64,000 nt of DNA, taken from positions 468,501 to 532,500 of the forward strand of contig JACYXH010000572.1 of the NCBI GenBank assembly GCA_026745465.1. The letters run 5' to 3'. The translations under genes were made by a program, and so were the position numbers. This stretch comes from Lota lota (lineage: Eukaryota > Chordata > Actinopteri > Gadiformes > Lotidae). Shown here piece after piece: positions 46,101 to 52,100 of this stretch (the stretch's first letter is position 1; the number at the start of each line of letters is the position of its first letter). Below the pieces are notes generated by a model, which worked only from the letters and a program-made list of their open reading frames with translations, made no database searches and had not been told where the DNA came from.

Positions 46101-49100
46101 GGTTTGCCTGCATAGCGTGTCCACTTTGTTTACCATTACTTACTGTCAGAAGGAATCAGGGAGTTATACTGGATATTCTTGAGATAGATGGGACTAAATG
46201 GACCATTGAGGGGGTAATAAACCCCCTCAATGTGTTTTATTAGCCCCTAGGACATTTTCTCTCCCCACCTTTGTCTCAGGCATACAACTCAATGATGAAA
46301 AGCAAATGCCAAGTACAGAGGATAGAGCAAAACCAGGCCCTACTTTTGCTTTCTGACTGGTGCCCTTTGTCACCCCATTTCTCTTTAGCTTAACCAAAGT
46401 GACTGATCTGTAAATCTGTAAAAATCTGCGTTCAGCAGCCACATATTGATTCAGCGTGTAGTCATTGAGTCATGGTGTTTGTGAGCTCTGAATGATGTGT
46501 GGTAAGAATGAGTGTATGTGTTTGTGCCTTTGTGTTTCTGTGTGCCTATGCCCTTTGGATTACGTGGATAACCACACATCACCGTCACTGACCTTGAATT
46601 GTTTTCAAATGACGCAGCAGTCTTTTCATGGGTTTGAGGTGTTTATCCAGGAGAAGCTGGCGTTTATTATTATGTCAGTATATTCAGTGTCATTTTCAAA
46701 GCTTGAAATGTTTTTACTAAACACTACTCGGCCCACTGCCTTGTCTGTAAAAATATGTACGTATGTTTGCATGTCTTTAAAAAGCTTCCTTCAGTGGTAC
46801 AAAGGCGCTGTATAAAATCAAGTTATTGTTATTATTAGTTGCATTAAAAGAAATTCATACTATAAGGATCTAAGTTATGTCTGCTTGGCGCACCTCATTG
46901 TTAAGTTCTCCCTGCTCTTGAAATCTCATTATTCTTCATTATTTTGATCTAATATGCAAATGCAACTCTTTTGCATTGAAGGTTTATCTTTCTAAATAAA
47001 TGAATTCCCTCCCCCCTCTCTCTCTTATCCCAGGTGAGCCTGAGTTTAAGTATATCGGCAACATGCACGGCAACGAGGCGGTGGGCAGGGAGCTGATCAT
47101 CTACCTTGCCCAGTACCTGTGTAACCAGTACCAGCAGGGCAACGAGACCATCATCGACCTCATCCACAACACGCGCATCCACCTCATGCCCTCCATGAAC
47201 CCTGACGGCTTTGAGAAGGCCGCCTCGCAGGTACGCTCCAGACAAGATCTCTGTATGTATTTGTTACACTGTCGTAGCTGAGGTTGAGATTTCCGCTACT
47301 CCCCGGCTTCATCTCTAGAGTTTTGTATAACAAGGTCATCACATTACATTTGCACATTGCACAGACATCTTGGAATACTATCTGCCTGAAAGAAAAATTT
47401 GTCAATATATAGTATATAAGCTTGTATTGCAACCAATTCATTTATGCACAGCTCTACTAAACACGAGGCCATCCCCTCTCCTCCTCTCCTCTTCTTTCCA
47501 CTCCTCTCCTCTCTCCTCTCTCCTCTCTTCTCCTCCCCTCTCCTCACCTCTCCTCCAACGCCTCCCAACCTCTTCCCTCCTCTCCTCTCCTCTCTGCTCT
47601 CATCTTTTCTCCCCTCTCCCTTCTCCTCTCCTATCTTCTCCTCTCCTCTCTCCTATCTCACTCTCTCCTCTCTTCTTCCCTCTACATTCTCCTCTCCTTC
47701 TCTCTCCTATCTCATGCTCTCCTCACTCTCACTCTCACTCTTTCCTTCTCCTCTCCTCTCTTCCTCTCCTCTCCTCTCCTCTCCTCTACTTTCCTCACCT
47801 TGTCTCCTCTATTACTCTGTCCTCTCTCCTCTCCTCTCTCTCTCTAACAATCATGCCACTCTCCTGCTCCTCCTAAGTCCGGGGAGATCAAGGACTGGTT
47901 CGTGGGCCGCAGCAACGCCCAGGGGGTGGACCTGAACCGTAACTTCCCCGACCTGGACCGCATCATCTACATCAATGAGAGGGAGGGCGGGGCCAACAAC
48001 CATCTGCTGCAAAACATGAAGAAGGCTGTGGACGAGAACAGCAAGGTGGATGCATGCACACATACACACACATGCATGCACAAACACCAACACTTCCTTA
48101 TTCACAATCATGAAACACATAACATTAACACACATACACATGCAAGCACATACACATCGACATACATATGCATGCACAAAACCCCCACATACAAAAAACT
48201 CACAAAATCACATAGACGTGCGATGTCTTCAGGATACCACCATATAGTTTCATAGCTAGCTTGTAAAAGTAATTTGTTTGCGACTGGGCTTGTTGACTAA
48301 CTTAAGTATGGCTCACCCTCCAGCTGGCTTGTTTACTATTTTAAGTAAGGCTCACCCTCCATCTGGCTTTTTATTTAACTTGAGTAAGGCTCCACTCTAG
48401 CTGGCTTGTTGACTAATTTAAGTATGGTTCACCCTCCAGCTGGCTTGTTGACCAACTTAAGTAAGGCTCCTCTTCCAGCTGGATTGTTTACTTTTTAAAG
48501 TAAGGCTCACCCTCCAGCTGGCTTGTCTAACTTAAGTAAGGCTCAGCTCTAGCTGGCTTGTTGACTAACTTAAGTAATGCTCCCCTCCCAGCTGGATTGT
48601 TTACTTTTTTAAGTAAGGCTCACCCTCCAGCTGGCTTGTTGACTAACTTAAGTAAGGCTCTAATCCAGCTGGCTTGTTATGGACGGTTTTAATGGACTTT
48701 ATTAGTTGTAACCCACAGAAGACGATTCACATTGCGTGTACCACAATCCACAAATATAATGTACTTGTGCTTGTGATATCCACACGAATATTTCACGACA
48801 GGCTAGTAGAAATATGTTTTTACATTAAAGAACATATTCATAATCTTCTACTCAGAAATATTGCAAGACTAGGGTTTACAGTGTGCAGCAATGATGTAAT
48901 GGACGTAGGAAGTAAGGGGTCCCCCCCCTTTTTTCTACTCTCTTTTGGGTTAAGCCCCCAAGGATTTTATCTGCCTAAAAAAACTTATTTCAAATTGCTG
49001 TATCGTACGCCATCTAGATGTGAAACAAGGGCATGGTCCAATGGTAGGCGATGACATGAAAACACCACTGGTGTGCAGCAGTATTTGCTTTATATTATAT

Positions 49101-52100
49101 TATACAATAATAGACTACTTGCACAATGAAGTGTCTCTACAGTAATGGCTGAACCTCTGCGCAGATGTGATTACCATATCAACCAAGAATAAAACCTGCA
49201 TGAATGGGAGGGTAGATATTTTCAATTAAAACATATATTCTCTTAAATCCACTAGGTAGTACAGCAGCTACAACCCAGGACAAACGTTTATATGATGACC
49301 CAGGACAAATGTTTATATGATGGCCCAAGACAAATGTTTATATGATGACCCAAGACAAATGTTTATATGGTGACCCAGGACAAACGTTTATATGATGGCC
49401 CAGGACAAACATTAATATGATTACCCAGGACAAACGTTTATATGATGACCCAGGACAAACATTAATTTGATTACCCAGGACAAACGTTTATATGATGGCC
49501 CAGGACAAACATTAATTTGATTACCAAGGACAAACGTTTATATGATGGCCCAGGTACATGGAAGTTATTATTCGACTGTAAAATGTGGCTGTGTACATAG
49601 CATACACCTCTAGATGGCGTACACCACATTAATTACCATCATATACATCATAATATAGTAATAGTTCTTAGGAAGTCAATAGGTTCTCACATATTACACT
49701 GCTCTTACTTTTCTAGCAGCATTTTATTTCAACTCTTCTTTTCTGACCATAATAGGAAGGCGGCCGCACTTAAATCTGCATATTGCCAACTACAGGTGTA
49801 TGTACGCAGCCACATTTTCAGCTGTGGTACACAATGGACAAAACTCTTCAAGATCCACAAATGCGTATATAGACCAGTTCACATCTATAATGATGTTCTG
49901 AAAGTGATTGTGGATATATTTTTTACAAGACACAACTTCAAAATGTGTATTTGTGGATCGTGAATTAGCCGTGTGGATCTAATTTTACCAAATATTTGTG
50001 GATTGGGGTACACGCAGTGTGAATCGTCGTCCAATAAAAACGTCCATAGCTTGTTGACTAACTTAAGGCTCACCCTCCAGTTGGCTCCAGAGACCAAGGC
50101 AGTGATTCACTGGATCATGGACATCCCCTTCGTTCTGTCAGCTAACCTGCATGGGGGAGACGTGGTGGCCAACTACCCATACGACGAGACCCGCACTGGT
50201 AAACAGGCACATGCACGCATGGACATGCACATGCACGCGCACACAGACACACAGACACACACACACAAACACACACATGCTTGCAAGCACATGCACTCAA
50301 GCGCACACACACACACACATATGCTCTCTCAAACACACAAGCACATGCACCCACACACATGGACACACTCATGTGGTCTACCACTCAATATCCCTCCATA
50401 GAAAATAGTTTGGCTCCCTGTTTTCCTTCCCCTCGATGTATCCTTGAAGTAGAGAGTGCACTCCCCATAATATGCTTTCCAATGCTTATGAACCAACAGA
50501 AACACATGTTGTTGTTGTTGTTCTTGTGTTGTATGCACAGCTTCAATGCCCTACAGAAGCTGGTGTGTTGTCTCCTTATCCATCAGCCCTTGCCTGCTCT
50601 CAATAACTTCTCTCTGTATCTCTATAAGGCTCCGCCCACGAGTACAGCGCCAGCCCGGACGATGTGGTGTTCAAGTCTCTGGCCCGGGCCTACTCCATGT
50701 ACAACCCGGTCATGTCGGACCCCCACCGCGCACCTTGCCGCAAGACCGACGACGACACCAGCTTCACCGACGGCATCACGAATGGAGGGGCCTGGTACAG
50801 CGTTCCTGGGGGTAGGTGGAGCCTAGAGGTGGGTGGAGCCACCCGGGATTCCATTTTATTATGCAAACATTTAGTTACCCTGCTTGCACTACAAATCATT
50901 AGGCAAATGGTTCTACTATGCAACCCATGGCTATAAAGATGCTCTTCTGTAACCTACTAAACGATGTTTAACTTCAAAAATGCACCATCAATTATTTATG
51001 GCGTGAGTCAGTTTAACAAAAATCGGCATATCAGGCGGCCATACATGGGGTCCTGGTCCTCAGGTAGAGAGACATGTGTTTCTCAAACATCTGTCTTTCA
51101 CAGCAGTTGATTCATCTTCCTCACTATATTGTACTCATCAGTCTTCATCTGCCATCGATTGACCCTTCATTGTACTGTATTGTTCTTGCTCTAGGTATGC
51201 AGGATTTCAACTACCTGAGCAGCAACTGTTTTGAGATCACTCTGGAGCTCAGCTGTGATAAATTCCCCAGCGAGGACATGCTCAAGAGCTACTGGGACCA
51301 GAACCGCAACTCGCTGGTCAGCTATATCGAACAGGTAGCTCATTTCAACTACAACATATTAAGTATATGTACATATATATTAGGGCTGTCCCTAATTGGC
51401 CAACAATTACGTTTGAATATTTAAAATAAAAAAACACATAGGTTCTAACCATATTTTAAGATCTATTTTGAGCATTTTCCATAAGAGGGCAAACCAATAC
51501 AACGAGAGAAACGAGTGAAACATGGAACAATTACCTTTTCATTAACATGAAACGGGAAATAATAATCAAACCATTGGGGACCTGCAGTGCAATGTGACAT
51601 CAAAGAGGTTTTACCCTGAGGGATAATTTACAAAAAAGGAAAAAGGTGCGACTGGTGCGACTGGTTCAGCGTTATCCACTGTCACTGACTATCAGGCCTT
51701 AGGCCTTAAGGCCTACATGTTATTTGCCCAAAACACAAGACAGTCCACATGTGAAGAGCCCAGTGCAGATCTATTTTTTTATGTACTATATAACCTGTGG
51801 AGAAAACGACACGTTCAGAACGCACTGAGGATCCAGGGATGGAAAGATATTTCTTTGCCATCAGGGCAATGTGAGGGTATCTCCCAGAGCCCGTAGTTTT
51901 CCACCAAAAGAGAGCATTCTGTTGAGCAGGTATTGGAGACAACTTTGCGATAAGTAGCTTAACCACAGGAGTGCTTTTTATAAAGAAATGTCACATTCAA
52001 ATATTAATTTTCACATTCAAATGTCATTTTTTACAATTCGAATCATATTCAAATTAAGAATATTCATTGACAACCCCTATATGTTTTTTTGGTTCAATGT

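Follow-up and report, generated by a model that had tools for sequence, protein, structure and literature searches.

Minisatellites that carry a splice donor at the edge of an exon are known from IFI6, ABCA7 and F7, and repeats of this donor-carrying kind are known to change the output of human genes. In IFI6 (6-16), a minisatellite of 12-bp units reportedly (1995) gives multiple splice donor sites at an exon edge. In human ABCA7, a 25-bp tandem repeat in intron 18 directly borders an exon, the splice site of which lies within the repeat; both the length polymorphism of this VNTR and its splicing effects were measured, and a transcript spliced at the next unit along is out of frame (PMC5954066). 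The 37-bp repeats in intron 7 of human F7 closely resemble one another and the first of them holds the splice site; among these donor-bearing repeats only the exon-edge copy is normally used (review, PMC6627357).

Here we describe a tandem repeat in intron 3 of cpe in Lota lota, analysed within a 64-kb stretch of DNA (the window, to which all positions refer). The cpe repeat resembles that of ABCA7 in lying at the edge of an exon and containing the splice site of that exon, and that of F7 in that closely similar units are present of which the exon-edge copy is probably the one used. In ABCA7, F7 and IFI6, however, the repeat is on the donor side, whereas in cpe it is on the acceptor side, and the copy used is the most upstream in F7 but would be the most downstream in cpe. 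The effects in ABCA7 were measured, whereas cpe is known from its sequence alone, and the parts of the ABCA7 paper drawn on here make no mention of a transposon splitting the repeat, in contrast to what we find in cpe. At the reconstructed empty site of the cpe insertion the array runs up to the exon and takes in the functional splice site, whereas today the element separates all but the last unit from exon 4; AG is carried by nine of the ten other units, and AG together with a branch-point match by five of ten. As the site in question is an acceptor, cpe is not a strict member of the ABCA7 and F7 kind. In a limited search of open-licence papers, with subscription papers mostly outside it, no acceptor-side exon-edge minisatellite was found, nor does one occur in the parts of PMC8912139 and PMC5379132 that were covered; within this literature the acceptor side appears to be the new aspect of cpe.

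On the acceptor side, a single unit can comprise the branch point, the pyrimidine tract and the AG. An array of such units would offer nearly identical acceptors, arranged in series by nature, with which to test spliceosome choice, and here a transposon has divided the series in an event that can be placed in order. Comparable structures may be common in tandem-repeat-rich gadids and could be screened for.

The exon 4 acceptor and the intron 3 array

The cpe coding region lies on the + strand in nine coding exons (40104-53966) and yields a predicted protein of 454 residues, 437 of which (96%) are identical to Gadus carboxypeptidase E, the best among the matches listed. Across the exon 3-4 junction, the alignment with the predicted Gadus CPE protein is gapless. 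The exons and repeat units that concern us are the following:

47878-48045, + strand: cpe exon 3, ending in AAG in phase 0, with the donor GTGGAT
48284-48668, + strand: ten complete minisatellite units of 35-40 bp, each CTGG...CCAG or CTAG, unit 2 ending in CCAT
48669-48677, + strand: first 9 bp of the terminal unit (CTGGCTTGT), left of the element
50055-50080, + strand: remainder of the terminal unit, which is the exon 4 acceptor, with a GACTAAC branch-point match followed by CTCACCCTCCAG
50081-50198, + strand: cpe exon 4, 118 nt

Tandem Repeats Finder (TRF) calls the array at 48287-48678 with a period of 39 and 10.2 copies, and ten units tile 48284-48668 exactly. AG is present at nine of the ten unit ends, the exception being AT at 48362 in unit 2. 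CTRAY is a strong branch-point consensus; a match to it stands 22-23 nt before the unit end in five of the ten units, and AG and the match are both kept in five. The four bases GTAA occur in eight units and GTAT in the other two, and the terminal unit has neither (TAAGTAAGG versus TAAGG). Relative to the array consensus unit 1 shows a single mismatch and the nine other array units show 3-12; in units 3, 7 and 10 the alignment slips at the AG, which makes their counts too high. In the first unit, CTGGGCT lies beside unrelated intron sequence.

The acceptor segment 50049-50080 has GCTTGTTGACTAACTTAAG (19 bp) exactly in common with the array, and GGCTCACCCTCCAG of the acceptor also recurs there exactly; the match counts of both motifs were reached by none of 100 window shuffles, and the exact 19-base and 14-base matches follow in the same order in acceptor and array. 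Apart from its four-base gap, the terminal unit agrees with the array consensus at all 35 aligned bases. The branch-point A of exon 4 is likely the one at 50061, 19 nt before the last intron base. Five of six bases are shared in the exon part of the unit, and of exon 4 itself only TGGCT.

An earlier, sequence-only reading of this DNA had noticed that the array units closely match the exon 4 acceptor, and the TRF call, the exact tiling by ten units and the 19-base exact match bear this out. Its observations that nine of ten units keep the AG while one has CCAT, and that exon 3 (47878-48045 in the exon model) ends in phase 0, are likewise confirmed. The strong branch-point match that it ascribed to the units is found in five of the ten, the other five having no CTRAY.

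TRF reports 75 rows across the 64-kb window, many of which are long dinucleotide runs. This is in line with the tandem-repeat-rich genome of Atlantic cod, reported to exceed other vertebrate assemblies about three-fold in tandem repeats; given such a genome, a minisatellite in a cpe intron is unsurprising in itself. Within 47481-47877, the exon 3 acceptor too has a tandem repeat beside it: some 71 units of CTCCT type, which stop 33 bp short of the acceptor.

The element within the terminal unit

Between the array and the acceptor lies a transposon-like element:

48678-50048, strand not assigned: IS3EU-like element of 1371 bp with the ends TATGGACG...CGTCCATA
48672-48677, + strand: left target-site duplication, GCTTGT
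50049-50054, + strand: right target-site duplication, GCTTGT
48678-48798, + strand: left terminal inverted repeat, gapped
49958-50048, - strand: right terminal inverted repeat, gapped
49273-49554, + strand: 25-bp minisatellite within the element, 11.3 copies

The 6-bp target duplication GCTTGT is exact on both sides. If the element is taken out and one GCTTGT kept, the flanks read ...AATCCAG CTGGCTTGTTGACTAACTTAAGGCTCACCCTCCAG TTGGCTCCAGAG..., an eleventh unit that ends exactly at exon 4. Because removal of the element leaves this seamless unit, the acceptor of exon 4 belongs to the repeat as its terminal unit and is more than a remote relation of it; as read from the assembly, it is physically the last unit, set apart only by the element, whose insertion there has placed the array 1.4 kb from the acceptor. 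The sequence-only reading had related the boundary to the array, and the two do form one repeat family, but it missed that the acceptor is the last unit, split off by an element with a 6-bp duplication. Since the terminal unit was split, at least this unit and the tenth predate the element; it is possible that the array to the left grew further after the insertion.

The arms of the inverted repeat consist of segments that are 86-93% complementary, with gaps between them, and the termini are of the TA..TA form (TATGGACG/CGTCCATA). IS3EU DNA transposons have TA..TA termini and usually 6-bp target duplications (2023 paper, PMC10045372). Both features are common to them and the present element, which is assigned by its ends; we call it IS3EU-like. 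Judged from its length of 1371 bp, it is thought to be non-autonomous. Two other target duplications were rejected. A TA duplication of the Tc1 type would leave the odd repeat GCTTGTTAGCTTGTTG at the empty site, where a 6-bp duplication gives back a perfect unit, and for an 8-bp duplication of the hAT type the flanks TGGCTTGT/TAGCTTGT match at only 7 of 8 positions.

The left 223 bases of the element have at least 44 further matches in the same genome (at least 45 with this copy), a lower bound in that 40 of 118 candidates were scored, and a count in which some elements give two or three matches; 21 of the 44 others start at the first base of the element. With a stricter script applied to 30 loci, both element ends were found in four distinct copies including this one. 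Their flanks are identical at 6/6 positions here, at 5/6 in L002 and L010 (the latter being one copy with L022) and at 0/6 in L026, a copy without target duplication; a flank match of at least 5/6 has a chance of 0.005 per copy. Laxer end pairing was obtained at 8 of the 30 loci (L001, L002, L003, L006, L010, L021, L022 and L026). By eye, L006 matches at 5/6 flank positions after a one-base shift and L021 at 4/6; L003 sits in a CA repeat and tells nothing about target duplication, and one pairing of L026 (1010-1889) ends in a GT repeat, its matches there being left out of the count. Sequence like the interior of the element, including the 25-bp minisatellite, is present at further loci such as L010 and L019.

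The array unit, by comparison, was found at no second locus. When a 22-base pattern was run against the whole 575-Mb genome (867 contigs) and two mismatches were allowed, all five hits fell in the array, and a DNA search of the same genome with the whole array, by a method that skips very common words, matched only the array itself. The sequence-only reading would have yielded to a unit common elsewhere in the genome; pattern and DNA searches hit this array only. The unit therefore probably arose at this locus. A scan of viral contigs for the unit and for the inverted end found nothing.

Origin of the array

We consider it probable that the acceptor was amplified into the array, that the element then split the last unit, and that the exon-edge unit is the one in use. 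According to this model, a segment of the exon 4 acceptor some 35-39 bp long, from the branch point through the pyrimidine tract to the AG, would have been tandemly repeated at this one locus, with the acceptor as the seed and slippage between the intronic CTGGGCT and CTGGCT/TTGGCT at the exon start as the putative cause. Intron 3 would then have ended in head-to-tail acceptor-like units, eleven today, the last of which served exon 4. Into this last unit an IS3EU-like transposon, apparently without a transposase of its own, would have inserted at GCTTGT, leaving nine bases of the unit on the left and the complete acceptor on the right, and shifting the other ten units 1.4 kb upstream. The model as a whole is supported by the empty site, which is an unbroken array running into exon 4, by the exact target duplication, the TA..TA ends and the copies of the element elsewhere, and by the single locus of the unit, the agreement of the terminal unit with the consensus, the gapless Gadus alignment over the exon 3-4 junction and the stops in all decoy frames. 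Against it stand the missing target duplication of copy L026 and the small exon share of the unit, five of six bases. Since the exon 3-4 boundary always needed an acceptor, local amplification of that acceptor is the simplest account. The direction of the process, with the acceptor as seed, is unproven, and the ancestral state was judged from one assembly, no other gadid cpe intron 3 having been found. Likewise unproven is an amplification of exon bases as part of the unit: the exon has no more than TGGCT in common with it, and unit 1 has CTGGGCT although the intron beside it is unrelated, so that intronic microhomology may account for these bases.

The opposite direction, in which an intronic repeat near exon 4 grew to the exon edge and one of its units replaced an older fish acceptor, is doubtful but has to be weighed. 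We compared 44 database proteins that contain exon 4, out of 108 and 120 in two listings: 40 are unspliced frames that end in Q before exon 4, three are spliced and one has another form. Thirty of the 40 unspliced frames have at least ten intron residues, and 19 are fish-type as judged by the exon 4 sequence, mostly unnamed. The intron tail of the window occurs in none of the 40 (30 being long enough to tell), which makes the acceptor sequence look lineage-specific and so speaks for replacement, as does a first array unit that nearly equals the consensus. Yet a working acceptor must have stood at this old boundary throughout, and the genome yielded no further unit copy as a source for such a capture. 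Moreover, an LPLQ or similar tail is present in 10 of the 19 fish-type frames, and the last 12 bases of the intron, CTC ACC CTC CAG, fit tails of this type bar one base; the fit is weak because any pyrimidine tract could match in this way. Upstream of position -15, the terminal unit fits the 19 fish-type frames like shuffled letters (115 of 500 shuffles reach its value), and comparison with these frames gave no support for a terminal unit that keeps the ancestral spacing. Finally, a region with 75 TRF rows in 64 kb offers many repeats that might resemble the exon 4 acceptor by chance, but an unrelated origin of the minisatellite is extremely improbable given exact matches of 19 bp and 14 bp in the same order, and the seamless empty site with its exact target duplication also speaks against it.

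Splicing into exon 4

Given the phase-0 end of exon 3, reading on from each of the ten unit ends meets a stop after 3-18 codons. The sequence-only reading had expected use of a decoy to give CTG GCT TGT TGA, and a stop does follow in all ten frames; the immediate one (LAC-stop), however, comes after four of the ten unit ends only, and the other six frames run for 5-18 codons. Pyrimidines make up 7-10 of 16 positions at the decoys and 10 at the true exon 4 acceptor, which is not the weakest of the gene, exons 7 and 8 having 9/16. The array fold is more stable than 100 of 100 shuffles (z -2.45), and in the fold of the present array all nine decoy AGs are almost wholly paired (unpaired value at most 0.08); in the empty-site fold the unpaired value at 48630 reaches 0.27. 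As the true acceptor AG is likewise predicted to be paired (at most 0.03), RNA folding does not separate the decoys from the true acceptor.

Splicing most likely proceeds via the terminal unit, because this unit has its branch point intact and, as exon definition would require, lies against a real exon; we infer that it is the only one used. The array units are not favoured, because they are decaying and use of any of them would give a premature stop. The likeliest state, judged from the sequence, would be one in which exon definition selects the unit at the exon edge and the other units are silent. Silent array units fit the precedent of F7, in which only the exon-edge copy is normally used, whereas ABCA7, where a unit can be retained, makes the opposite outcome possible; some array units may be used as acceptors.

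In the extreme form of that outcome, the array units would compete with the true acceptor, and the premature stops that follow, with nonsense-mediated decay, would lower the level of functional cpe mRNA, the copy number setting the effect. An AG at nine of ten ends, CTRAY 22-23 nt upstream in five of ten, stops in all ten frames and a pyrimidine content close to that of the true acceptor (7-10/16 versus 10/16) would suit such competition, and at ABCA7 a donor-carrying intronic VNTR does alter splicing (PMC5954066). We nevertheless regard it as unlikely: no exon adjoins the decoys, which are 1.4 kb upstream on the far side of the element and have decayed, one AG being lost and CTRAY missing from five of ten, and in F7 only the exon-edge copy among the donor-bearing repeats is normally used (PMC6627357). 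We give still less credence to a scenario in which the array copies are poison acceptors that scale with copy number and the transposon insulated the working acceptor, rescuing splicing from decoys that the gene itself had made.

Returning to the favoured model of an amplified acceptor with the exon-edge unit in use, some further features of the region can be described. The array units (48284-48677) are quasi-palindromic, with junctions reading CCAGCTGG (seven in the array) or TAGCTGG (two). By the donor consensus AAGTAAGG is donor-like; it occurs in six of the ten array units and GTAAG in seven, and the terminal unit has neither it nor the four bases GTAA or GTAT. The GT of GTAAG lies 21 nt past the preceding unit end (18 nt in one unit). 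With an acceptor AG and a donor-like AAGTAAGG about 21 nt on, a unit of this sort looks like a very small exon that has a splice site at either end. The exon 3 donor itself (48043-48053), AAG|GTGGATGC, is off consensus, with no G at +5, and leads into CA-rich sequence.
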